Source: an uncultured Candidatus Binatia bacterium
Lineage (GTDB): Bacteria > Desulfobacterota > Binatia > Bin18
Assembly (NCBI GenBank): GCA_958296235.1
Contig: OY282457.1
Coordinates: 699,769 to 763,768 of the forward strand
Direction of reading: 5' to 3'
DNA: 64,000 bases
How positions within the stretch are numbered: the stretch's first letter is position 1; every line of letters starts with the position of its first letter. The notes below the pieces were generated by a model. The model had not been told where the DNA came from. It saw nothing but the letters and a program-made list of their open reading frames with translations, and ran no database searches. Positions 7,709-39,110 of this stretch are shown piece by piece. The position numbers and the translations under genes are program-made.

Positions 7709-8194
7709 ATGCGTTTACACACACGTTTCCATTGGTCGCCCTGGGTTCTCCTGGCTGTGCTGAGTGGCACGTTCTTTTTCGTCGCCCCCCAGCAGTCCGC
7801 AGCCGAATTCGCCCCGGAACTGCAACAGGCGCTGGACTCCAGCAAATATGTCTATATCCAGTCCGAGCGTAAGAGCGGCGCGTTCGGCTCAAAGGCCGAA
7901 ATCTGGTTTTTCCGACATGACGGGGCCGTCTGGGTTGGGACGCCGGTGTCTACCTACCGCGTCAGGCGTATCCAGGCCGGACGCACAAAAGCCAAGGTCT
8001 GGATCGGCTCGCGCGATGGGCAGTCGTTTGAGGCGACCGGGTCTCTGGTGAAGGACGAGGCCGTCAACGAACTCATGTATAAGAGCTTTGCTCAGAAATA
8101 CCCGGACGGCTGGCCGACCTATGAAGAGGGCTTTCGGAGCGGTTTTGCCGACGGCTCGCGCACCCTGGTGCGCTATGACCCAGCGGGCATGTAG
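7709..8194 (+). CDS. Secreted protein of unknown function, possibly split-barrel fold
   Basis: 161 residues with a clear signal peptide (hydrophobic core WVLLAVLSGTFFFVA, likely cleavage after SAA). The mature part has YIQSERKSGAFGSKAEIWFFRHDGAVWVGT, then RIQAGRTKAKVWIG and a C-terminal helix. The strand order and the W-F pattern recall pyridoxamine-oxidase/F420-type split barrels, but that is only a fold guess. An AGCGGAGG site precedes the ATG. It starts 23 bases after the cyclophilin gene and is followed by a good terminator, so it is probably the last gene of that unit. Confidence 0.65.
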   Translation: MRLHTRFHWSPWVLLAVLSGTFFFVAPQQSAAEFAPELQQALDSSKYVYIQSERKSGAFGSKAEIWFFRHDGAVWVGTPVSTYRVRRIQAGRTKAKVWIGSRDGQSFEATGSLVKDEAVNELMYKSFAQKYPDGWPTYEEGFRSGFADGSRTLVRYDPAGM

Positions 8195-8232
8195 GGTCAG
8201 CGAAACTTCCGTAGCAAAGGCAGCAAGCTGAC

Positions 8233-8260
8233 AAGGGCGGGGAAAGTCTCCGCCCTTTTT
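8233..8260 (+). terminator. Rho-independent terminator after the secreted-protein gene
   Basis: AAGGGCGG-G-GA pairs with TC-T-CCGCCCTT around an AAG loop and runs directly into five Ts. It lies 39 bases after the stop codon and separates this unit from the SNF transporter gene. Confidence 0.8.
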
Positions 8261-8304
8261 CTGTTTCCCCGCGGATAGACTCAAAAGGGGAATGACGGAG
8301 AAGA

Positions 8305-9621
8305 ATGGCGATGGCGCAAAGCAGGGGCAACTGGTCGGGAACGTTGGGATTCGTGCTTGCCGCTATGGGGTCGGCGGTCGGCTTGGGCAATATCTGGCGC
8401 TTTTCGTATATCACCGGTGAAAACGGCGGGGCTGCGTTTATTCTCGTATATGTTGGCTGCGTAGCCGCGGTCGGCATCCCACTGCTGATTGCCGAATTGC
8501 TCATCGGTCGACGTACGCAGCGAAACGTCGTCGGCGCACTCTCCGCGTTGCGGCCCGGCTCGGTGTGGCCCGTCACCGGCTGGCTGGGCGTGGCCACCGG
8601 CTTTTTCATTTTATCGTATTATTCGGTCGTCGGCGGCTGGGTTTTGGACTACATCGTGCTGTCCGGCCTGGGCAGCTTCAGCGGGCAGTCGGCACCAGCC
8701 ATCGGAGAGCTGTTTGACTCGCTGAGGCTAAACGGGCCGCGGCAGGTGTTCTGGCACGCCGTGTTCATGGGCCTGACCATCTGGTTTGTCTCGCACGGTG
8801 TGGCGCGCGGCATCGAGCTGGCCAATCGGGTCATGATACCCACCCTCCTCCTGTTGTTGGTTTTTTTGCTCGTATACGCGTGCACGACCGGCGGAGCCGC
8901 GCAGGGCATTGCGTTTTTGATGACACCGGACTGGAGCAAGATCGGCCCCCAGACGATGCTACAAGCGATTGGACAGGCGTTTTTCTCTATCGGGGTGGGC
9001 ATGGGCGTCATGATCACCTACGGCAGCTATCTGCAACGCCAGACCAGCCTGCCGCGCGCGGCGCTGATCGTAGCCGGCTGCGACACGGGTGTCGCGATCC
9101 TGGCCGGGTTCATGATTTTTCCGCTGGTGTTCACATTCGCGCTGCAACCCGACGCCGGGCCGGCGCTGATTTTCAAGACCCTACCGGTCGCGTTTGGTCG
9201 TCTTCCGTTCGGCAACCTGCTCGCCGTCCTCTTTTTCCTGCTGCTGACGTTTGCGGCGCTGAGTTCGGCCATCTCCATGCTGGAAGTCGTTGTCGCCTAT
9301 TTTGTCGATGAGCGGGGTTGGAGCCGCGTGGCGGCCAGTTGGATAGTCGGCGGCGTGATCTTCGCTCTCGGTATTCCCTCGGCGCTGGAGGGAAAAGTCT
9401 TCGACTTTATCAACATCGTGACAAGCGACTATATGTTGCCCGCCGGCGGGCTACTGATCGCCGTATTTACCGGGTGGTGGCTCACGCATCAAGAGCGGCA
9501 AGCGGAAGTCCCGGCGAGCGATCTGAGGCCGATCCTCTATCTGGGGTGGGTCTTTCTGCTGCGCTTTGTTGCGCCGATTGCCGTGACGATTATTTTGTTG
9601 CAATCGATCGGGTTGTTCTAG
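8305..9621 (+). CDS. Sodium-dependent transporter, SNF (NSS) family
   Basis: 438 residues, the usual length of bacterial neurotransmitter:sodium symporters such as MhsT and LeuT relatives. The sodium/substrate site of TM1 is intact: GSAVGLGNIWRFSYITGENGG at about 22-42, with the unwound G-L-G-N-x-W-R-F. About 11 hydrophobic helices follow, including the TM6 region IGQAFFSIGVGMGVMITYGSYL. These carriers import amino acids or amines by sodium symport across the inner membrane. The ATG follows GGAGAAG. The FAD monooxygenase gene starts one base after the stop, so the two are cotranscribed and the imported compound may be its substrate. Confidence 0.92.
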   Translation: MAMAQSRGNWSGTLGFVLAAMGSAVGLGNIWRFSYITGENGGAAFILVYVGCVAAVGIPLLIAELLIGRRTQRNVVGALSALRPGSVWPVTGWLGVATGFFILSYYSVVGGWVLDYIVLSGLGSFSGQSAPAIGELFDSLRLNGPRQVFWHAVFMGLTIWFVSHGVARGIELANRVMIPTLLLLLVFLLVYACTTGGAAQGIAFLMTPDWSKIGPQTMLQAIGQAFFSIGVGMGVMITYGSYLQRQTSLPRAALIVAGCDTGVAILAGFMIFPLVFTFALQPDAGPALIFKTLPVAFGRLPFGNLLAVLFFLLLTFAALSSAISMLEVVVAYFVDERGWSRVAASWIVGGVIFALGIPSALEGKVFDFINIVTSDYMLPAGGLLIAVFTGWWLTHQERQAEVPASDLRPILYLGWVFLLRFVAPIAVTIILLQSIGLF

Positions 9622-11790: not shown

Positions 11791-12507
11791 TTACTCAACA
11801 GGACCGAGTTCTATTCCCTCTAATAGCTCCTCTTCTTCAGGACTCAGCTCGATATCTTCCAGGGCGTCGTCTGCCACAGAATCGGAGCCCAGAGCTTCCT
11901 CTAAAGCGCTGAATTCCGTTTCCTCAAATTCGTTCTGCTCTTCCAGCTCTGCTTCGCTCTCTTCTCCAAAATTTTCGCCCAAGGCTTCTTCTAAAGGACT
12001 TGGCTCCGTTTCGACTTCTACGGTCTCGAATGTCTCGTCGACCTCTCCCGTCCATTCGGCAACAGCCGCCAGCATGGGTCTGACCAGGGCGGTCGGAATG
12101 CCATAGGCCGCTTCGGGTCCGGGCTTGCCCATAGTTACATGGGACGCCTCATCGTCATCTTTTTCTTTGAAGAACACGCCGGACATGATCCTGCGCCCAC
12201 CGACAAACTGAACCGTCTCAACGCGGAAAAACTTCCCAGTCACCTCACCATTGATATTCCTTTGGTCGCCTCTGTTGCTGACTTCCCAGCCGTTTTCCGT
12301 TGCCACGTCCTGAAACAGCATGAGCGCCACTTGCGGCGGAACCTTCAGATTCAGCTTCTCACCCGCCTTGATCCGCTCTTCTTTTTTCGGCTCTACACCC
12401 GGAATGATGGCTGACATGGATGACACTGTTGATTTCACAGAGCCGCAGCTCACGAGGCCGAGGAAGCTCAGGCTGACCGTCCAGACTAGGTAGCGCATTA
12501 TTTTCAT
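11791..12507 (-). CDS. Lipoprotein with long acidic tail
   Basis: 238 residues. The N-terminus MKIMRYLVWTVSLSFLGLVSCGS is a lipoprotein signal with C21 in the lipobox. Residues 45-150 form a compact domain (LNLKVPPQVALMLFQDVATENGWEV, then VETVQFVGGRRIMSGVFFKEK). From about 165 onwards the protein is almost all Glu/Asp with two copies of an L-E-E-A-L-G motif and a final EELLEGIELG. Such acidic tails are often flexible partner- or metal-binding segments. A GAGGAAAAG site supports the ATG at 12505-12507. One copy of the 21-bp islet repeat lies directly upstream, at 12535-12555. Function unknown. Confidence 0.65.
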   Translation of the reverse strand: MKIMRYLVWTVSLSFLGLVSCGSVKSTVSSMSAIIPGVEPKKEERIKAGEKLNLKVPPQVALMLFQDVATENGWEVSNRGDQRNINGEVTGKFFRVETVQFVGGRRIMSGVFFKEKDDDEASHVTMGKPGPEAAYGIPTALVRPMLAAVAEWTGEVDETFETVEVETEPSPLEEALGENFGEESEAELEEQNEFEETEFSALEEALGSDSVADDALEDIELSPEEEELLEGIELGPVE

Positions 12508-12534: not shown

Positions 12535-12555
12535 GACGCTTATACGTGTTGGGCC
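12535..12555. repeat. 21-bp direct repeat, left copy (islet boundary)
   Basis: Starts GACGCTTATACG and ends TGGGCC. It is identical over 21 bases to 14978-14998 and in the same orientation. The right copy covers the last codons and stop of the luciferase-like oxidoreductase gene; this left copy is outside any gene, 28 bases upstream of the lipoprotein start. The two copies bracket the HEPN/nuclease block, like attachment-site duplications of small islands. Confidence 0.75.
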
Positions 12556-12649
12556 CGGAAGACTTGGAGGCAGGAGCTTTTTGGATAGTTCATCGAGGCG
12601 TCATCCAGGATACCGTTCATTCAGACTTACTTACTGGCTTCGGATCACC

Positions 12650-13228
12650 TTATATATTGATACCCAATGTCTTCAATACGCTCCGAATTGCTTCCTTCAA
12701 AAAAACAGGCTGTGCGTAAGGTATGACGTTACCCTCCGCCATGTATCTCCAATCGAGGAAATAGTTATTCGCTGATTGGAATGCTTGCTCCGCTGTTTTC
12801 CAGCCCTCATCAGGTAGACGTTTATGCTGCTGGATTCGTACCGCATAGTCAGCTTCTATTTCGTTTCTCCTCTTGACAGGCAATTCACTATACAGATCAT
12901 CGTACAGTTTGTGTGTCTGTGGAGCGACGGCATCGGGACGTTCAATTTCGTATACGTACTTAAGCGCTAATTCTGCGGCCAGGCCGGCAAGCACTTGGGC
13001 GGACTGAATCATACCAATAGAGTATCCGCCTGAAATGACTGTGAATTCACGCATCTCTCCATACTGGTCTTGTTGCCATTCCCGCCGACTAGATTTTGCA
13101 GCTTCAATTTTTTGTCTTTCCGCGGCGAGGCTGTCGATGTGATCAGAACTTTCCAACATTCCTACAACTAACGACTCAATCACCGGCGCTTTTCGGGTAG
13201 GTCTTTTTCGCCCCTTCATACTGGACAT
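12650..13228 (-). CDS. HEPN-like helical protein
   Basis: 192 residues, mainly helical. The stretch from about 70, GMIQSAQVLAGLAAELALKYVYEIERP, followed by QTHKLYDDLYSELP, is the typical HEPN-domain layout: a helix with A-x-E-x-x-L-K, a loop, then H-x-L-x-x-L. The classical R-x(4-6)-H RNase motif is not met (the Arg and His are eight residues apart), so catalytic activity is doubtful. HEPN proteins are common in toxin-antitoxin and antiphage systems. GAGGAG lies 10 bases before the ATG at 13226-13228. Base composition is clearly more AT-rich than the flanks. It follows the nuclease gene by 112 bases on the same strand. Confidence 0.55.
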   Translation of the reverse strand: MSSMKGRKRPTRKAPVIESLVVGMLESSDHIDSLAAERQKIEAAKSSRREWQQDQYGEMREFTVISGGYSIGMIQSAQVLAGLAAELALKYVYEIERPDAVAPQTHKLYDDLYSELPVKRRNEIEADYAVRIQQHKRLPDEGWKTAEQAFQSANNYFLDWRYMAEGNVIPYAQPVFLKEAIRSVLKTLGINI

Positions 13229-13340
13229 GGTCGTCAAACTCCTCTTCTGCTAACTTAAAGTAGCTTCTCGCCCTGAGAATATGTCTTTCGCCACCCTTCT
13301 CGTTTAGTCCAAAGCCCCTCGGACCGATTTTGACCTCTAC

Positions 13341-14513
13341 TTATTCGTTAGCTTTATTTTCGTTCCTCCACGTCGTCCAGAGGAGACCTCTTTTATGCCT
13401 TTTATTTGCAAGGTCTTTTTTCTCACGTCGTTGGTCAAGTATGCTCTTCTTCACAAGAGGGTACAGATGCCATCGTCGTTTCACTTTCAGCCGTTCCTTC
13501 TCCTCTTCTTCCTTTAGACGTTTCTGCTCCTCTTGATATCTTTGCTGTTCCTCCTGCCAGCGTTCTTCTTCCTCACGCCTCTTCCTTTCCATTTCGGCTT
13601 TTAGCTGCTGCTTCTCTTCCCAATTTACCCATTTTCGATCCGTTGCTTTAGACCGGATTTTGGCTTCCGTAGTCGAGAACCATGATCGAATCTCCTCCCA
13701 ACTGTCAATTTCACCAAGATCGATCGGCTTCTTAATCTTGAGAATATTCCTACCCGTCTCATTATATTGCCACTCTTGTTTTCTATTTACTTGTGGAAAA
13801 TCCGTACTTAATTTCTCCGAATAAATATCAACGGCTCCTCTATCATTTCTCTGACGTCTTCCACGAAACACCCGGGCGGAAACATCTATTTCCGCTTCAT
13901 TCATACTAACTTTTCTGGCTATCACAGCGTTTACGTACTCTATTTTGAAATGAGTTATACTTTTATACCTTTCTTCTCCCCGTCCCCACTGATTCCAAAA
14001 TTCTTCGATCAATTTGGTGTTTTTCACTCTCTCGTCTTCGGTATATAAAACTCTTTCTAGTTGCGCTGGTGTCGGCCCTAACTCCAGCAAGAGGAAAACC
14101 TGATCGTTGTCTTCATTTTTTCGATCGATCTTCAACAAATAGTATACCGCTCCTTCTGTCTTGGCCGCTTCTTTTCTGTTCGTTTCAGAGACTAACCTTC
14201 GAAATTTTCTATCGAAAGCTGACGCAACCCAAATTCTAATCCTCGCCTCCAAACTCTCTCCATACGCAACCAACTGGTGCCAATGTCTGGTGTTCGCCGG
14301 TTCGAGTTGATTCTCGATTACTACTTTCGTTTTGCTTTTCGCTTCCCACGCGACAATATCTGCCCGGCCGCCTGCTGCACGGACCTCTCGTCCTAATGAG
14401 GACAGTTCGAGCCCTGTTGCTTTTGATACAGACTCAATGTTGTCCTTCAGCCAGGGAGTGAAATCCTCAGCCTCGTGGGGCCATTTTTCTCTAATCCATC
14501 CATCTTGTCTCAT
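13341..14513 (-). CDS. PD-(D/E)XK nuclease-like protein (DUF4268-type) with coiled-coil tail
   Basis: 390 residues. The N-terminal 120 residues carry a restriction-nuclease core: GREVRAAGGRADIVAWEAKSKTKVVIENQLE gives D52 and the E67-N-Q69 variant of the E-x-K motif, followed by HWHQLVAYGESLEARIRIWVAS. This matches DUF4268/RecB-like families found beside restriction and abortive-infection genes. Residues 150-290 form an uncharacterised domain, and 298-346 a long Glu/Lys/Arg-rich coiled coil. Base composition is AT-rich. The ATG at 14511-14513 has only a weak GAGAA site. With the HEPN-like gene it forms a two-gene unit, likely defensive. Confidence 0.65.
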   Translation of the reverse strand: MRQDGWIREKWPHEAEDFTPWLKDNIESVSKATGLELSSLGREVRAAGGRADIVAWEAKSKTKVVIENQLEPANTRHWHQLVAYGESLEARIRIWVASAFDRKFRRLVSETNRKEAAKTEGAVYYLLKIDRKNEDNDQVFLLLELGPTPAQLERVLYTEDERVKNTKLIEEFWNQWGRGEERYKSITHFKIEYVNAVIARKVSMNEAEIDVSARVFRGRRQRNDRGAVDIYSEKLSTDFPQVNRKQEWQYNETGRNILKIKKPIDLGEIDSWEEIRSWFSTTEAKIRSKATDRKWVNWEEKQQLKAEMERKRREEEERWQEEQQRYQEEQKRLKEEEEKERLKVKRRWHLYPLVKKSILDQRREKKDLANKRHKRGLLWTTWRNENKANE

Positions 14514-14564
14514 GCGGACACTCAGTTCTCTTTACCGAAAGAATGGGCGAACGATGCCTTTGGA

Positions 14565-14780
14565 TCAAAGGCAAGTGAGATTTCCTCGTTTAAGGTTTCG
14601 TCCACTGATTCTTTCGCTCTTTTCGCGTAGCCCGTCAAGGCAACGCTGCTGAGCGGCAGGATTGCGGTCGATGGCCATGCAGGCTTCCCGTGCGTGGATA
14701 CGGTCCTCGGTGTCGCGTTCTAGCCACTCCACGAGCGGGTCGCGCTGGAAGGGCCGCATAGTATCTTCAAGGATTTTGTT
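14565..14780 (-). pseudogene. In-frame continuation after an amber stop (or separate 64-aa ORF)
   Basis: Reading on past the TAG at 14781-14783 in the same frame gives NKILEDTMRPFQRDP, then WLERDTEDRIHAREACM and QQRCLDGLREKSERISGR, ending at 14565. It has its own ATG at 14757-14759 with a poor ribosome site. The composition (charged, helical, two cysteines 12 residues apart) looks like a natural protein tail. Either the secreted-protein gene was split by a nonsense mutation, the stop is read through, or this is an independent small gene. Confidence 0.4.
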
Positions 14781-14942
14781 CTAGCGGTCTCGGCGCTCGT
14801 AGTACTCATCCATACTCCGTCGATAGCTTTCTCCTGGATCGTGGGTGTCAAAGTCAAAAGGGTCGTACTGAGCCAAGACCACGCTGGGCAGCCCGAGGCA
14901 GGCTACCAGACACACGCCCGTCAAAGCGGTTCCTCTCGTCAT
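14781..14942 (-). CDS. Small secreted protein, 53 aa, possibly truncated
   Basis: The ATG at 14940-14942 has an excellent AAGGAGGAG site. The product MTRGTALTGVCLVACLGLPSVVLA is a signal peptide, followed by QYDPFDFDTHDPGESYRRSMDEYYERRDR, so the mature part is only about 30 residues, rich in Asp and Tyr. Translation ends at an amber codon, and the same frame stays open for 72 more codons. No family is recognised. It lies just inside the 21-bp repeat at the right end of the islet, though its base composition is closer to the host. Confidence 0.55.
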   Translation of the reverse strand: MTRGTALTGVCLVACLGLPSVVLAQYDPFDFDTHDPGESYRRSMDEYYERRDR

Positions 14943-14977
14943 ACTCGGCTCCTCCTTCTGGTCCTTTGGAAATTCTG

Positions 14978-14998
14978 GACGCTTATACGTGTTGGGCC
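14978..14998. repeat. 21-bp direct repeat, right copy (islet boundary)
   Basis: Identical to 12535-12555 over 21 bases. On the minus strand it encodes the final A-Q-H-V and the TAA of the luciferase-like oxidoreductase, plus a few bases beyond, so the intact gene contains this copy. Insertion at a gene's 3' end with the end regenerated is the typical signature of site-specific integration. Confidence 0.75.
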
Positions 14999-15858
14999 AA
15001 CTCAACAATAGGCGCGAGTTGCTTAACGGCTTCAACGCCATTACGGAAAGCGGCCTGGGCCGCGGCCAGTATCACCCGAGTGACGCCGGCTTCCTGGTAG
15101 TGTTTGAGCGTATCGCCATCCAGGCCGCCTTCGGGCGAAGAGAGCAGGAGGACGGAGAATTCAAGGGCTTCGGGGTCACGACCGGCCTCCAGGGCCAGTT
15201 GTTTGATGACAGGAATATCTTCCTTGGCCTGCTCGGGCGTGAGCCCCCCAGGGCACCAGCCATCGGCATAGCGGGCCACCCGCTTGAGCGCGTAGCGCCG
15301 GTCATGCGCGCCAAGAAAGATCGGCGGGGTTGGCTTTTGGACCGGCTTGGGAAAGAGTTTGACTGACGGGAAACGGACAAACTCGCCGTCATAGCTGGCT
15401 TCCTCTTTGGTCCACAGCTCTCGGAGGGCTTCAACCGATTCACGCAGATGTTGCCAGCGTTTGGCAAACTGCACACCCATGATTGCGGCTTCCTCAGGCA
15501 GCCAGCCGGCCCCGACCCCGAGCAGGAGGCGCCCGTTTGAGTATAGATCAATACTCGCCGCAGCCTTTGCAGTCGTGATCGTGTCACGCTCCGGCAGGAG
15601 GCAGATACCCGTCCCCAGACGAATCGTCTGTGTCGCCTGCGCTGCCGCGGCCAAGGCCACAAACGGATCAACCAGATGCGCATAGAATTCAGGTATTTTT
15701 CCATCCGGTGAGCGGGGATAATAGGTCGTAGAGTGCGTCGGTATGACTAAATGCTCGGCAACCCAAAATGACTCAAACCCGAGACGCTCGGCCTCGTGAG
15801 CAAGAGTCCCCGGTTCTCCAGACTGTTCGGTTAAAAAAGCGAGTACCCCGACCTGCAT
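14983..15858 (-). CDS. LLM-class (luciferase-like) F420/flavin-dependent oxidoreductase
   Basis: 291 residues of the bacterial-luciferase TIM-barrel superfamily. Typical features are FESFWVAEHLVIP near residue 30, ATQTIRLGTGICLLPERD near 80, SNGRLLLGVGAGWLPEE and the YADGWCPGG block near 200. It fits the TIGR03619-type F420-dependent subgroup, whose members reduce or oxygenate small hydrophobic substrates; the cofactor (F420 or FMN) cannot be fixed from sequence. A GGGAGG site precedes the ATG at 15856-15858. Its last codons lie in the 21-bp repeat that bounds the islet, so this gene is probably the integration target. Confidence 0.85.
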   Translation of the reverse strand: MQVGVLAFLTEQSGEPGTLAHEAERLGFESFWVAEHLVIPTHSTTYYPRSPDGKIPEFYAHLVDPFVALAAAAQATQTIRLGTGICLLPERDTITTAKAAASIDLYSNGRLLLGVGAGWLPEEAAIMGVQFAKRWQHLRESVEALRELWTKEEASYDGEFVRFPSVKLFPKPVQKPTPPIFLGAHDRRYALKRVARYADGWCPGGLTPEQAKEDIPVIKQLALEAGRDPEALEFSVLLLSSPEGGLDGDTLKHYQEAGVTRVILAAAQAAFRNGVEAVKQLAPIVELAQHV

Positions 15859-23097: not shown

Positions 23098-23383
23098 CGT
23101 GGGGTAGTGTCTCGGCTTGAAATTCCCCCTCACCCCAGCCCTCTCCCCTTCGACCGGCTCAGGACAGGGCTCCAGGGGAGAGGGAGCAGATATGCCCTCC
23201 CCCTGGAGGACGTGCGATGCAGATTCCAGGGCGCGGCCCCCAGACGGTTCGGCCCTCCCCCACCCGCTCCCAGCGGGAGCGGGCCTCTTGTCCTTCCCTT
23301 GTCTTTCCCCTGTCTTTCCCTCTCCCCTGGAGGGAGAGGGTGGCCCTGAGCTTGTCGAAGGGCCGGGTGAGGGGGCCTTCCCC
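23098..23383. repeat. Composite intergenic palindromic repeat region
   Basis: The 476-base gap between the DAHP synthase and LRR genes holds no convincing gene. From 23098 on it is packed with repeats: a TAGTGTCTCGG motif (23105), a core beginning GGACGTGCGATGCAG (23208-23257), a perfect 21-base palindrome (23263-23283) and a 23-base palindrome CCCTCTCC..GGAGAGGG (23318-23340). TTCGACC..CTCAGG at 23148 and CCTGAG..GTCGAAG at 23345 face each other. The same elements recur at 42384-42536 with the core inverted. They resemble REP/REPIN-type elements and may also end transcription of the LRR gene. Confidence 0.7.
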
Positions 23384-26300
23384 CTACTGCCGGTCCGTAA
23401 TGACAAAGTTCTGGAGGCTCTGTTGCCACTCCACCGTCACCGTCTGGCCCGCAGTCGGGAAATCAGCCAAATCCGCCTCGCCCTCCAACCCCCGCGCAAA
23501 CTCCTCCCCTAATGTCGTCACCGTGAAGATGCTGTGGGCAAACTCTTCCCCATCGGCGAAGGCCCGCACCGTATGTTGCCCCGCCCCCAGCCGGTTCCAG
23601 TTCCACAGCAACCCGAAGCCGTTGTCCGTGTCCCCACACTTGTCTGCTGTGTCAGTCCGGCTCGTGCCATAGCTAGCCGGCTCCGTGAAGGTCGCGCCCG
23701 TCACCCCGTTCTCAAACCTCAACTCAACGGTCTCCGCATCACACACCCAGCCTGAGAGGACACTGATCCCACTCTGGAAGGAGCCGGGCTGCGGATTGCC
23801 CAAGTAGGCCGTGAGGGCGTCGCCGGCATCACCGCCGCCCCCGCCCGCCCCGGACACGATGGCGAAGTTCTGTTGCGCTTCCTGCCACTGGAGCATGGTC
23901 GTCTCCCCTTCCTCAGGAAAGTCAGTCACCTCGTAGGTCCCGCTGAGACCGCGCGGGAATTCGAAGTCTTTGCCTGACCCTAACCTGGTTACGGTAATGG
24001 TATGTTCGGCTAACACGATATCATCCACCACCGCCCGGACGGTCTGCGGCCCATCCCCCAGCTTGTTCCAGTTCCATAACAACCCGAAGCCACTGTTCGA
24101 GTCTGCACACACGGAGGCCGTGTCGGGTCGGCTCGTGCCATAGGCCGCCGGCTCACGCCATACATCACCGTTGGGCCGGTCAAACTCAATGACCACGCGC
24201 TCGGCATTACACACCCAGCCGGACAGGACGCCGATGCCACTCTGGAAGGTGGTATCGCCGGGGTTCCCCAAGAAGCCGGGGCTGTAATGTACCGTCAGGC
24301 GGTAGGCCCCCGTGGCTCCACTCTTGCCGCTGACGGCGAGCGTGTACGTGCCTGTGATGACAGCTTGGGCGAGGCGGAAGTTGCGCCGCACCCCGCTGTC
24401 GTCGTCGGTCGCCACCGCTTCTTCTTCGTCCGCGTGCCACAGCGTCCCGACGGTGTTGGTGAAGCCGGTCGTCTCGATACGCAGGACGCCGGGCAGAGGC
24501 AGGGTGAAGCGGAAGTAGTCGACGTCGCTGCTGGACACCAGACGGCCCCTGGCGATGGTGCCGGGTGTCAGCGCGGTGGCCGTTGCCGGCGTGTTGCCGT
24601 GGGTGTCGGTGGGAGTGCCGCCGCCGCCGCCCCCACCACCGCCGCCACCACCGCCGACATCACCGGACCGGAGCTCCTTCCCGACGGTGAAGTACGAGAA
24701 CTGGAAGACGTTGACGCAGACCTGGCTGCTGGAGACGGTGCGGCCCGCGGTCAGCCGCTCCCAGGTGGCGGTGGCCGCGTTGTAGCGCAACACATGGGCC
24801 TGGCTGGCCGGAACATCCAAGGGGCGGGGTAAACACACCCGGACGGGCGTGGTCAGCCGGGTGGTGACGTCCGCCCCCATCAGCGACACGGTGATGTCGA
24901 AGACGTGCTTGCCGGTGGAGAACTCCGTGTTTAACGGGGGCCCCGCGCTGGGAACCAGACTGGCAGGGACCGGCGTCATGGTGAAGGCATCGACTTCGGC
25001 GTCGGCGGGGTTGGCAGGGGCGGGGGGCAGGGTCACGAAGGTGCCGGGGGCGTCGAGCGGGCGGCCCATGTCGTTGTCGAACAGGTCCTTCATGTCGGGG
25101 TCGGTAATGGTGGGGACGGCGCTGGTAAGCCGATTCTGGTTGGCGAAGATGGTGCCGGTCAGGCGGTCGGTCAGGGTGTTGCCGGTTCGAGTGGCGTTGT
25201 TGTTCTGTTGCCGGAAAATGTCGTAGTGGCTGGTGTCCCCGGTGTTGCGCGTGAGGGCGATGAGGTTTCCCTGCCCGGAGACGGTCAGCGTGTTAGCGCT
25301 GGAGGTGGAATTCGTGGGGACAGCCGCGGCCGCGAGCAACGCCAGCCCGTGCCCGGCGCTCCCGCTGGTGAGCATGGGATGCCGGGCCACGAGATTGTTG
25401 GTCAGGGTGGCCGTCACGGTATTGGCGTCCGCGCTGCGCGTGCCGCCGGTGAGGGCCAGGCCAGCGACACCGCTCCGCCAGACGGTGTTCCCGGTGAGCG
25501 TGGCCGTCACGGTGTTGCGGTCCGCATTGGTCGTGCCGCCGGTGACGGCCAGACCGATGTCCGGCGTGTCTTCGGACAGGTTGTTGGTCAGGGTGACGTC
25601 CAGGCGGTTCTCCGTGGTGGTGGCCATCGGCGTGGGGCAGGTGGTCCCGGCGTTGGACCCGCCGGTCACGGCGATGTCCGGGAAGGTATTGGCCTGGCCA
25701 TTCCTGGACAGGGTGTTGTCGGCGAGGGTGGCCTGCACCCGGTTGTAGCGCCCGCCGCAGAATCCGCCGGTGACGGCAATGCCGATACCCGCGGTGTGGT
25801 CATGGACGTGGTTGTCCCGGATGGTCAGCCCGGTGATGCTGCTCACCAGTGCGGTGTTGACCGACCCGGACCAGGCGGAGATGCCGTGGACGGCATTCGC
25901 GTAGACTTCGTTCTGCTCAATGGTCGTGGCGGTGAGGGTGGACCCGGGCCCAAAGGTCGCGACCGCGATCCCTACTGTGGTGGTGCCGGTAACGGTGTTG
26001 CCGCGTATCGTGGTGTGTGAGAGGGCCCCGGTGATGCTCTCGCCACCAACCTGAAGAACAATGCCGTACTTTCCACCGGTGATGGCGTTGTTGGTAATCT
26101 GGGTGCGGGTTACAGGGCCAGAAGTGACGGCGAGGGCGAGGATGCCGTCATTAGGAAAATTTTCGAGCCTGAAACCGTTGACGGTGGTGTTGGAGGCGAG
26201 GATGAGCAGCCCATTCGTGGTCATGGGCGTCCCGGTCCCGTCCAGGGTGATGTCGGGCGTCCCGTCTCCATTCACGTCGCCGTCCAGGGCGGTGCTGGCA

Positions 26301-29300
26301 TCACACAGCCACGGTAAGGGGTCGGGGTCGGTACCGGTGTCGGTACCGTCGGCCAAGGTGATGGTCTGGCCGCGCAGACGGCGGGCAAAGGTAATGGCCT
26401 CGTCCTCTGTTGTAGAGTTGGCGTAGATCAGGGCTTCGCGCAGGGTGGGCTGGGTCGGAAGGCTGGCCGGGACGCCGCCGGCATCTTCTACGACGCTCCC
26501 ACACTGGTCGCTGCTCGGATCAAAGGTCGCAAAGGCGGCGGCCAGGGTATCATCAGTGGTGGTGATGGTGATTTCCTTGACCCGGCCGAAAGTGCTCGGG
26601 TTGTTCCCGAGCCGCAGGACCAGGGAGGGCCGGTTGCGCAGCCCGGACGGCAGATTGCCGGTGAGTTGGTTGTGGTGCAGGTAGAGGGCCTGCAAGGGCG
26701 GGCTGCGCAGGGTCGAGGGAATGGGGCCGGTCAACAAGTTGTTGCTCAGGTCCAGAATCCGCAAGTTGCTCAGACCGCCCAAAGTCGACGGGATGGTCCC
26801 ATTCCGGTTGGTGCTGTCGAGATACAACTCCGTCAAGTTGACCAAGGCGCTCAAGTCCGGGATAACGTCTGCGGTGAAGGCGTTGTTGCCGAGGTCCAGA
26901 ACTACCAAGTTGAGCAGGGCGCTCAAATCCGGGAAGGTGCCGGTCCGGTTGGTGTTGTTGAGATACAGGTGCGTCAACGTGGTCCGGTTTTCCACCCAGG
27001 TCGGGACCACTCCGGCGGTGAAGGCGTTATTGCTGAGATCAAGAACCTGCAAGTCTTCCAGGTCGCTCAAGTCCGGGAAGGCCCCATTCCGGTTGGTGCT
27101 GGCGAGCCGCAGCTGCGTCAAACTGGTCAGGTCGTCGTTCACCCAGGTCGGGATCGCTCCGAGGGTGAAGGCGTTGTCGCTGAGGTCAAGAATCTGCAAG
27201 TCTTCCAGGCCGCTCAAGGTCGGGAAGGCCCCATTCCGGTTGGTGTTGTTGAGCCGCAGATCCGTCAAACTGGTCAGGTTGGCATTCACCCAGGTCGGGA
27301 CCACTCCGGCGTCGAAGGCGTTGTCGCTGAGATCAAGCCACGTCAACGCGGTCCGGCCGCTCAAGGTCGGGAAGGCCCCATTCCGGTTGGTGTTGCTGAG
27401 CCGCAGCTCCGTCAAACTAGTCAGGTTGGCATTCACCCAGGTCGGGACCACTCCGGCGTCGAAGGCGTTGTCGCTGAGATCAAGAACCCTCAACGCGGTC
27501 AGGCCGCTCAAGTCCGGGAAGGGGCCAGTCCGGTTGGTGTTGTTGAGCCAAAGCTGCTGCAAACTGGTCAGGTCGTCGTTCACCCAGGTCGGGACCGCTC
27601 CGGCGGTGAAGGCGTTGTTGCTGAGAGTAAGAGCCGTCAAGTCGGTCAGGCCGCTCAAGTTCGGGATGGGGCCAGTCAACTGGTTGCCGTGCAGAACAAG
27701 GTGTCGCAACGTGGTCAGGTTGGTGTTCACCCAGGCCGGGATGGAGCCGCTCAACTGGTTGTTGGACAGATGCAGGATCGTCAACTCGGTCAGGGCGCTC
27801 AAGTCCGGGATGGGGCCAGTCAACTGGTTGGTGCGCAGAAGCAGCCATTCCAACGCGGTCAGGGCGCTCAAGTCCGGGATGGGGCCGCTCAACTGGTTGG
27901 TGCCGAGCCGAAGCTGCTCCAACGTGGTCAGAGCGTTCAGGGTGGGCGGGATGGGGCCGCTCAACTGGTTTTCGTGCAGATATAGCTGCGTCAACGCGGG
28001 CAGGCCGCTCAAGTCCGGGATGGGGCCGCTCAACTGGTTGTCTTGCAGCCGCAGCCACTCCAACGCGGGCAGGTCGCGCAAGGCCGGGATGCTGGTCAAC
28101 TGGTTGTCGTACAGATCAAGAACCCGCAACGCGCGCAGGCCGCTCAAGTCCGGGATGGGACCGCTCAACTCGTTTTCGCTCAGATCAAGCTGCTCCAACG
28201 CGGGCAGGTTGCTCAAGTCCGGGATGGGACCGCTCAACTGGTTCTTGTGCAGAAGAAGATTCCGCAACGCGGGCAGGTTGCTCAAGTCCGGGATTTCCTC
28301 GCTCAACTGGTTGTTGTTCAGATAAACAAGCGTCAACGCGGTCAGGCCGCTCAAGTCCGGGACTCTGCCGGTCAACTGGTTGTTCTGCAGCCACAGCCAC
28401 TTCAACGCGGTCAGGTCGCTCAAGTCCGGGATGGGGCCGGTCAACTGGTTGTTCTGCAGATACAGAATCCGCAACGCGGGCAGGTTGCTCAAGTCCGGGA
28501 TTTCCTCGCTCAACTGGTTGTCGTTCAGATATAGCTGCTGCAACGCGGTCAGGGCGCTCAAGTCCCGGATTTCGCCGGTCAACCGGTTGCTGTGCAGATG
28601 AAGATTCCGCAACGCGGTCAGAGCACTCAAAACCGGGATGCGGCCGGTCAACTGGTTGCTGCTCAGATGAAGAGTCTGCAACGCGGTCAGGGCGCTCAAG
28701 GCCGGGATTGTGCCGGTCAACTGGTTGTCGCTCAGATGAAGAGTCTGCAACGCGGTCAGGGCGCTCAAGGCCGGGATTGTGCCGGTCAACTGGTTGTTGC
28801 TCAGATGAAGAGTCTGCAACGCGGTCAGGGCGCTCAAGGCCGGGATTGTGCCGGTCAACCGGTTGTTGAACAGAGCAAGAGACTGCAACCCGGTCAGACT
28901 GTTCAGAGCGGCCGGCAGGGTGCCAGTCAGGCTCTTGTTTGGGAGGTCCAGACTGGTCACCCGTGGCGGGGTCCCCGACACGGTGACGCCCGTCCACGAG
29001 TCCATATCGAGCGTGTTAACCCAGTTCAGGGGATCGGTAGCGCCCATAGCCAAGGTTCCGCGCAGCGCCGCCTTGAGATTCAGCAGGGTGTTGCAATCGG
29101 TGGCCAGATCGCCGGTCACGGTTGCGGGTGGGTCGCCTCGGGTACAGGTCTGGGTTTGCGCGCCGCCAGTCCCGGGCCAGCCCAGGACGAGGCCCCCCAG
29201 CAGCAGGCTGCTCACTACTGAGCGCAGGAACCGCCGGGCTGGCGCGGGGCTTTTCCGGGAAGGCGCTAACTGGCGATTTTTATTGAGGTTTTTCGGGGGG

Positions 29301-29368
29301 GGGGGGGGGTAAAGTGAGACGACTTGGGTGTGACATGGCTTTTCCGCTCCGGTGCTTATGTTCTGCAT
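23384..29368 (-). CDS. Giant leucine-rich-repeat / beta-helix surface protein
   Basis: About 1994 residues. An extended N-terminus with poly-Pro (21-25) precedes a signal peptide (core VVSSLLLGGLVLG, cleavage near 70). Residues 90-130 look like a plant-type LRR cap (NLKAALRG..DSWTGV). About 30 LRRs of L-x-x-N-x-L-T-G-x-I-P type follow, first with 23-residue spacing, then a W-V-N-x-N-L-T-S type with about 49-residue double repeats (roughly 550-850). A right-handed beta-helix (N-x-V-T-x-T-L-T-N-N repeats, about 930-1420) comes next, then a domain ending at a 13-Gly linker (about 1585), a PPC domain (about 1600-1700) and two related C-terminal domains (SGWVC..YGTSR.DTA..GFGLLWNWN, about 1700-1855 and 1860-1994). 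The ATG at 29366-29368 has AGGAG six bases upstream. Probably exported and surface-exposed; likely adhesin or host/particle-binding. Expression may be switched by the poly-C tract. Confidence 0.85.
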   Translation of the reverse strand: MQNISTGAEKPCHTQVVSLYPPPPPKNLNKNRQLAPSRKSPAPARRFLRSVVSSLLLGGLVLGWPGTGGAQTQTCTRGDPPATVTGDLATDCNTLLNLKAALRGTLAMGATDPLNWVNTLDMDSWTGVTVSGTPPRVTSLDLPNKSLTGTLPAALNSLTGLQSLALFNNRLTGTIPALSALTALQTLHLSNNQLTGTIPALSALTALQTLHLSDNQLTGTIPALSALTALQTLHLSSNQLTGRIPVLSALTALRNLHLHSNRLTGEIRDLSALTALQQLYLNDNQLSEEIPDLSNLPALRILYLQNNQLTGPIPDLSDLTALKWLWLQNNQLTGRVPDLSGLTALTLVYLNNNQLSEEIPDLSNLPALRNLLLHKNQLSGPIPDLSNLPALEQLDLSENELSGPIPDLSGLRALRVLDLYDNQLTSIPALRDLPALEWLRLQDNQLSGPIPDLSGLPALTQLYLHENQLSGPIPPTLNALTTLEQLRLGTNQLSGPIPDLSALTALEWLLLRTNQLTGPIPDLSALTELTILHLSNNQLSGSIPAWVNTNLTTLRHLVLHGNQLTGPIPNLSGLTDLTALTLSNNAFTAGAVPTWVNDDLTSLQQLWLNNTNRTGPFPDLSGLTALRVLDLSDNAFDAGVVPTWVNANLTSLTELRLSNTNRNGAFPTLSGRTALTWLDLSDNAFDAGVVPTWVNANLTSLTDLRLNNTNRNGAFPTLSGLEDLQILDLSDNAFTLGAIPTWVNDDLTSLTQLRLASTNRNGAFPDLSDLEDLQVLDLSNNAFTAGVVPTWVENRTTLTHLYLNNTNRTGTFPDLSALLNLVVLDLGNNAFTADVIPDLSALVNLTELYLDSTNRNGTIPSTLGGLSNLRILDLSNNLLTGPIPSTLRSPPLQALYLHHNQLTGNLPSGLRNRPSLVLRLGNNPSTFGRVKEITITTTDDTLAAAFATFDPSSDQCGSVVEDAGGVPASLPTQPTLREALIYANSTTEDEAITFARRLRGQTITLADGTDTGTDPDPLPWLCDASTALDGDVNGDGTPDITLDGTGTPMTTNGLLILASNTTVNGFRLENFPNDGILALAVTSGPVTRTQITNNAITGGKYGIVLQVGGESITGALSHTTIRGNTVTGTTTVGIAVATFGPGSTLTATTIEQNEVYANAVHGISAWSGSVNTALVSSITGLTIRDNHVHDHTAGIGIAVTGGFCGGRYNRVQATLADNTLSRNGQANTFPDIAVTGGSNAGTTCPTPMATTTENRLDVTLTNNLSEDTPDIGLAVTGGTTNADRNTVTATLTGNTVWRSGVAGLALTGGTRSADANTVTATLTNNLVARHPMLTSGSAGHGLALLAAAAVPTNSTSSANTLTVSGQGNLIALTRNTGDTSHYDIFRQQNNNATRTGNTLTDRLTGTIFANQNRLTSAVPTITDPDMKDLFDNDMGRPLDAPGTFVTLPPAPANPADAEVDAFTMTPVPASLVPSAGPPLNTEFSTGKHVFDITVSLMGADVTTRLTTPVRVCLPRPLDVPASQAHVLRYNAATATWERLTAGRTVSSSQVCVNVFQFSYFTVGKELRSGDVGGGGGGGGGGGGGTPTDTHGNTPATATALTPGTIARGRLVSSSDVDYFRFTLPLPGVLRIETTGFTNTVGTLWHADEEEAVATDDDSGVRRNFRLAQAVITGTYTLAVSGKSGATGAYRLTVHYSPGFLGNPGDTTFQSGIGVLSGWVCNAERVVIEFDRPNGDVWREPAAYGTSRPDTASVCADSNSGFGLLWNWNKLGDGPQTVRAVVDDIVLAEHTITVTRLGSGKDFEFPRGLSGTYEVTDFPEEGETTMLQWQEAQQNFAIVSGAGGGGGDAGDALTAYLGNPQPGSFQSGISVLSGWVCDAETVELRFENGVTGATFTEPASYGTSRTDTADKCGDTDNGFGLLWNWNRLGAGQHTVRAFADGEEFAHSIFTVTTLGEEFARGLEGEADLADFPTAGQTVTVEWQQSLQNFVITDRQ
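28701..28838 (-). repeat. Near-identical 69-bp tandem repeats inside the LRR gene
   Basis: Two full 69-base units (28701-28769 and 28770-28838), with flanking partial copies from 28640 and to about 28860, differ by only one or a few bases; each encodes one 23-residue LRR (LQTLHLSxNQLTGTIPALSALTA). Such close DNA identity points to recent duplication and probable copy-number variation between strains. Confidence 0.8.
29295..29309 (-). repeat. Poly-C (15) homopolymer tract, candidate phase-variation switch
   Basis: Fifteen consecutive C residues on the coding strand, 20 codons after the chosen ATG and before the signal peptide. With 15 C the frame is open. With 14 the reading ends at TAG and with 16 at TAA, each within about ten codons of the tract. 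This is the layout of slipped-strand contingency loci in surface proteins. Confidence 0.7.
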
Positions 29369-29433
29369 CTGTTGCTCCTGTGTGGATGCGGAGTAATACA
29401 ACATAGTCAGACAACTCAGGCAAGACTTGTGGT

Positions 29434-29660
29434 TCAGCGGGGGGGGTCAGTTTCACATCTCCCTCCCCCGCTGCCGGCTCAGCGCCCCCCCACCCTGACC
29501 CTCCCCCTCAGAGGGGGGAGGGAATAGGAGGCGCAGGGCGCGCCGAGGGTGCTTCGACTTCGCCCTTCCAGGGCTCCGCTCAGCACGAACGGTCTCTCTG
29601 TTCACCCTGAGCGTAGCGCCAGCGCAGTCGAAGGGCCGGGAAGGACGCGACGGGTGGGCT
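29434..29660. repeat. Intergenic repeat region upstream of the LRR gene
   Basis: The 449-base gap between the divergent LRR and htpG genes (29369-29817) has no gene I can support. 29434-29660 is C/G-rich with the palindrome CCTCCCCCTCAGAGGGGGGAGG (about 29498-29520) and facing GCTTCGAC / GTCGAAG motifs (29551 and 29627) linked to CTCAGC / CCTGAGC. It is related to, but more degenerate than, the repeats downstream of the LRR gene. 29660-29817 should hold the htpG promoter; I see no clear heat-shock consensus. Confidence 0.55.
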
Positions 29661-29817
29661 GAGGGCCTCATCGGCATTGGGTCGCAGGTCCCGCGGGCGG
29701 TCCGTCTTCTCCTGAATTTGCGTTCCGAAAAAGAATGATTATTGAAGAGAATGGAACGCTATAGGCGCCGGAGGGCGGATTCTGCCTAATTTCGCGCTGG
29801 AAGAGGAGAAAAAAACA

Positions 29818-39104: not shown

Positions 39105-39110
39105 CTCTCC

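Follow-up and report, generated by a model that had tools for sequence, protein, structure and literature searches.

Elements that lack integration genes and keep their att sites have been described as CIMEs (PMC5704250). The locus reported here shares with CIMEs and decayed IMEs, as far as these are set out in that source, direct repeats within the 8–60 bp range, insertion at the 3′ end of a gene that is left whole and the lack of an integrase or transfer gene; it differs from them in its size of only 2.4 kb and in showing no parent trace, conjugation genes or accreted neighbour element. A further likeness is to the defence cargo of phage satellites and prophages at P2/P4 hotspots (PMC9122126), in that a few probable defence genes travel together as cargo. 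In contrast to such cargo, no phage or satellite gene was recognised in the insert, and the islet does not lie inside a prophage. Casposons have duplications of up to 27 nt (PMC4046053) and, like the islet, no tyrosine or serine recombinase, whereas the islet is without Cas1, PolB and terminal inverted repeats; neither Cas1 nor PolB was matched by any of the three proteins of the insert. A search of the literature, covering mostly titles and the openings of abstracts, found no report of this islet.

The window analysed here is a stretch of 64,000 bp from the genome of an uncultured Candidatus Binatia bacterium (G000; assembly GCA_958296235.1, contig OY282457.1, positions 699,769–763,768). The features of the islet and its surroundings are as follows, in window coordinates.

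11791–12507, minus strand: lipoprotein gene, intact, on the other side of the site; its ATG start is common to the same-genus genomes
12535–12555, plus strand: left 21-bp copy, non-coding, in the leader of the lipoprotein gene, 27 bp before its ATG
12556–14977, no strand: inserted DNA, 2422 bp, missing in all six same-genus genomes
12650–13237, minus strand: HEPN-like protein, diverged, 195 aa; its relatives resemble Pfam HEPN
13341–14513, minus strand: PD-(D/E)XK nuclease-like protein, 390 aa; PADLOC candidate family PDC-S11, NucS/EndoMS-like N-terminal domain, long C-terminal helix
14565–14942, minus strand: small secreted-protein gene, a pseudogene or two short ORFs, with an in-frame TAG at 14781–14783
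14978–14998, plus strand: right 21-bp copy, comprising the last 13 coding bases of the luciferase-like gene, its stop and 5 bases beyond
14983–15858, minus strand: luciferase-like monooxygenase (Bac_luciferase, E 4.5e-56), intact, the target gene

The islet is bounded by the direct repeat GACGCTTATACGTGTTGGGCC, present as exact copies on the same strand. Allowing up to 3 mismatches, it occurred at these two places only, both in the window (chance expectation 0.00) and in the whole genome (4,624,001 bases, one contig). The original prediction had noted the 21-base identity in the same orientation, with the right copy forming the end and stop of an oxidoreductase gene and the left copy non-coding; exact matching in the window and the genome confirmed the identity, and both placements were borne out. 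It had also suggested looking for the 21-mer in the rest of the genome, which returned the two known copies alone. No inverted-repeat core was detected in the 21-mer, 1806 of 2000 shuffles scoring as high, and no recognisable recombinase core was found. A resemblance to dif was considered with a Xer-dependent element (IMEX, p-dif module) in mind; the 21-mer has no relative elsewhere in G000 at up to 3 mismatches, and a search of the genome with the dif-site consensus gave no clear dif, a control pattern being at least as frequent. Neither the 21-mer nor a degenerate form of it was found in viral contigs. An integron gene cassette was put aside by eye: GTTGGGC is present in the repeat and no facing partner was seen.

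All three genes of the islet and both flanking genes lie on the minus strand; the assignment of the lipoprotein gene was made by eye from an LVSC lipobox-like start. The insert has a GC content of 47.6%, whereas genome windows of its size average 57.4%; in the segment with the two main genes (12556–14540) the value is 45.7%, to be compared with the same average. The segment with the secreted-protein gene (14541–14977) was host-like at 56.3%. The AT-rich character previously noted for the HEPN-like and nuclease genes was thus upheld, and the description of the cargo needs correction for the secreted-protein gene, which has host-like GC and is broken by the in-frame TAG. Convincing relatives of the secreted protein were found in G005 only, at two places (43–44% identity); one of the G005 contigs carrying such a relative also has an ORF that appears transposase-like by eye. 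Searches of the insert proteins against protein families gave no match to an integrase, transposase or relaxase, and no integrase remnant was found in the insert, in which the non-coding room is less than 300 bp. Terminal inverted repeats were not detected: compared over 20 bases, the two ends scored 12 at best, a value reached by 39 of 300 shuffles, and in this the insert differs from a DNA transposon with inverted ends.

The insert was absent from all six other genomes of the genus (G001–G006), in each of which the luciferase-like gene runs directly into the lipoprotein gene and the site carries a single near-copy of the 21-mer with 1–2 mismatches. The original prediction had expected just such an empty site, with the two genes adjoining at one repeat copy, and all six genomes agreed with it. 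Identities to the orthologues in these genomes were 92–96% for the luciferase-like gene and 83–88% for the lipoprotein gene, which stands directly behind it in each; outside the genus this gene order was not found. When the flanks of the window were joined and aligned with G001, G002, G004, G005 and G006, the alignments passed through the junction without gaps over 166–168 bases at 84–87% identity, with one repeat copy. In G003 the alignment covered 84 bases at 89% identity and stopped where the repeat ends, the leader of the lipoprotein gene beyond it being divergent; the site measures 64 bases there versus 2491 in the window, and the insert is absent. BLAST matches between the window and G001 stopped at 12555 and restarted at 14978, the two matches sharing exactly 21 bases on the G001 side, and the flanking 8 kb was 88–90% identical to the relatives. 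A further place resembling the 21-mer was seen in G003 with 3 mismatches, which is unremarkable since a reversed control gave 4 places in 7 genomes. None of 57 other genomes contained the DNA of the insert, apart from one 31-bp match at chance level, and no match to it was found among plasmids and phages.

These data give good support to a precise single insertion of 2443 bp (2422 bp of new DNA and a 21-bp repeat) that left both neighbours intact. It is placed in the lineage of the window because all six relatives lack the insert and have a single near-copy of the 21-mer. An unrooted tree of the 8 kb next to the site separates G000 and G003 from G001, G004 and G006, and the pairing of the first two recurs, unsupported (0.06), in the luciferase-gene tree. 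Since all six relatives are empty, including G003, the closest by the 8-kb tree, a single gain is the most economical history.

A survey of indels compared G000 300001–1123768 with G001 3196000–4060000, the matches summing to 620,830 bases. It yielded 24 clean insertions of at least 200 bp, 10 in G000 and 14 in G001. Long direct repeats accompanied two of the 24, the islet (21 bp) and G000 662106–663239 (83 bp), and the best repeats of the remaining 22 were 6–11 bases long. A separate survey of 463,768 bases of G000 for exact direct repeats (at least 18 bp, copies 300–12,000 bp apart, flanks less than 50% alike) gave, besides the islet, three repeat-containing stretches (around 336–337, 603–604 and 726–728 kb) and the same 83-bp case at 662,106/663,157.

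The 83-bp case (G000:C1:662106–663239, L107) lies outside the window. It is a 968-bp insert flanked by two copies, identical over 83 bp, of the 5′ end of a pxpC-like gene, and it contains a HipA-N-like ORF, both names having been assigned by eye. The body of the pxpC-like gene is 76–77% like that of three congeners, which are 87–94% alike among themselves, and a further 4.7 kb of extra DNA follows, a messier context than that of the islet. It may represent a replacement by foreign DNA and was not counted as a further example of such an islet.

The locus is best explained, with a probability of about one half, as a small integrase-less integrative islet that is CIME-like. A cargo of 2422 bp would have recombined at the 21-bp site into the 3′ end of the luciferase-like gene, recreating the gene end and leaving the second repeat copy before the lipoprotein gene. 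The repeats would then represent attL and attR of a site-specific recombinase that acted in trans or has since been lost. By analogy with integrative elements as presented in PMC5704250, site-specific recombination at a gene 3′ end would fit best, and the islet shows features of the CIME kind, namely direct repeats, an intact target gene end, a one-copy empty site and no integration or transfer genes. No parent element with the same att sites was found, there being no other site in the genome at up to 3 mismatches and none in viral contigs, and we therefore claim likeness to CIMEs rather than membership. Recombinases of PF00589 number only three in G000, all outside the islet; two look XerC/XerD-like by eye and the third is a 252-aa orphan beside a gene judged Hsp20-like in the same way, so that no resident helper is evident. 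Several absences count against the CIME-like reading: there is no integrase or relaxase, nor a remnant of either, the 21-mer shows no inverted core, and neither a parent nor a helper was found. Of the original prediction, the moving in of a small cargo islet was upheld by the six empty sites and by the absence of its DNA from all 57 genomes, while the part of an integrase, since lost or otherwise, remains a guess compatible with the data; the insert holds no remnant of one. The enzyme, the mobility and the defence function of the islet are likewise inferred.

Its main rival, which is possible and the less probable of the two, is that the repeat arose by target-site duplication. A linear fragment would have been joined into a staggered break or cut in the host DNA, by end joining or through a transposase or Cas1-like enzyme working in trans, and the 21 bp would have been copied when the overhangs were filled in. 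The two copies are identical and each congener differs from them at 1–2 positions, as if both were host-derived; identical copies are compatible with site-specific recombination as well. A repeat of 21 bp exceeds the usual length of transposon duplications, which counts against the duplication, and so does the insert itself, in which there are no terminal inverted repeats, no transposase and no Cas1. The missing recombinase core in the 21-mer speaks for it, as does the other repeat length (83 bp) of the second insert-like event in G000, although that event, set in a region that looks replaced, may be of another kind. Casposon duplications, for which PMC4046053 gives a range of 1 to 27 nt, would accommodate the length seen here.

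Homology-assisted illegitimate recombination appears unlikely. In this scenario incoming DNA shared only the 21 bp, or a related luciferase 3′ end, with the chromosome and entered by a single crossover, for example as a circle; a single crossover of any circle at 21 bp would yield exactly the structure of the islet, and the pxpC-like event at 662–664 kb suggests that G000 does take up foreign segments sharing gene ends with it. Yet the end of the luciferase-like gene shows no divergent patch, identity across the junction being 84–87% in five genomes and, as far as the repeat reaches, 89% in G003, similar to the 88–90% of the flanking 8 kb, and the insert has no replication gene. An ancestral islet lost from the six relatives by recombination between the repeats is very improbable: direct repeats would permit precise loss, but the GC content of the insert differs from that of the host, and repeated losses would be needed because none of the six relatives has the islet, not even G003, which clusters with G000 on the 8-kb tree. 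Least likely of all is an assembly artefact, a short-k join at the repeat, for which the usual smallest k-mer of short-read assemblers, 21, can be adduced, and against which G000 is a single 4.62-Mb contig and a false join would require a foreign fragment that bears the 21-mer terminally, or else a 2443-bp circle that contains it.

The cargo probably includes two anti-virus (defence) genes. The nuclease-like protein matched the PADLOC model PDC-S11 (E 9.7e-30, residues 7–291), a candidate defence family, and protection against phage by the islet nuclease is a prediction from this match. In an alignment of the nuclease (n = 7), D52 and E67-N-Q69 were among the conserved positions. The N-terminal part of its structural model is confident and resembles NucS/EndoMS (2vld, 4.2e-4; 5gke, 5.0e-4), and the C-terminus is a long predicted helix. 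Relatives with E values up to 0.001 were present in six of 296 further genomes sampled from the phylum, and all five relatives scanned, from four of those six genomes, contained DUF4268 (Pfam). The window protein thus agrees with the PADLOC candidate PDC-S11 and DUF4268 nucleases in its own PDC-S11 match and in the DUF4268 of its relatives, and differs from them in having no Pfam DUF4268 match and in ending in the long helix. DUF4268 is present in some GmrSD type IV restriction proteins (PMC4619093). Matches to the nuclease numbered 61 among plasmid records, not one of them over 80% of the protein's length, and 2 in the phage collection; no relatives were found by peptide patterns in named genome contigs and viral contigs.

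The HEPN-like protein of the window itself had no Pfam HEPN or PADLOC match and no convincing family match of its own. Relatives were found in one of 57 other genomes and in two of 147 other genomes of the class, G003 (29% identity) and G406 (33%), with none in viral contigs or plasmids. The G003 relative scored 24.6 bits against Pfam HEPN, above the cut-off of 22, and the G406 relative, which adjoins a DUF499 gene, scored 21.6 bits, just below it. The gene in G003 (L055/L079, G003:C44, around 7990–8590) belongs to a type I restriction locus, where it is flanked by hsdR and hsdS. The catalytic motif of HEPN ribonucleases, R-x4-6-H, is absent from both the window protein and its G003 relative, and occurs once, near the N-terminus, in the G406 relative. 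If active, the window protein may therefore act without RNA cleavage. Its fold model was unusable (pLDDT 38). On the CIME-like reading the NucS-like PD-(D/E)XK nuclease would cut foreign DNA, the HEPN-like protein would be its partner or an independent toxin, and the cargo genes, having the same direction, might be read along with the luciferase-like and lipoprotein genes; a scan for promoters and terminators gave nothing that settles the expression of the islet.

The islet is of an ordinary kind, unusually clean, and by itself shows no new way of moving. It provides a clean before/after pair in which the moved unit is fixed to the base, as 2422 bp plus the 21-bp repeat. Such pairs from small islets are useful because many defence genes sit in large scrambled islands that hide the moved unit. 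The insertion also links a PDC-S11 nuclease and a HEPN-like gene as the cargo of one event, which gives a testable pair. A more specific and rather doubtful proposal is a bare two-gene defence cassette of about 2.4 kb, a NucS-like nuclease with a HEPN-like partner lacking the usual catalytic motif, that was moved by an enzyme encoded elsewhere and left the 21-bp duplication. If true, defence genes could spread in a way that escapes genome surveys keyed to integrases.

Elsewhere in the window, positions 23102–29716 are variable. The window has an ORF of 2006 aa there (23384–29404, minus strand), and G001, G004 and G006 hold 6.8, 3.2 and 7.6 kb of other DNA at the same spot. A 1.3-kb insertion in G001 (G001:C1:3621450–3622764) lies directly behind tRNA-Glu ttc, corresponding to window position 39105; it is without a long repeat and carries an ORF that is methyltransferase-like by eye.
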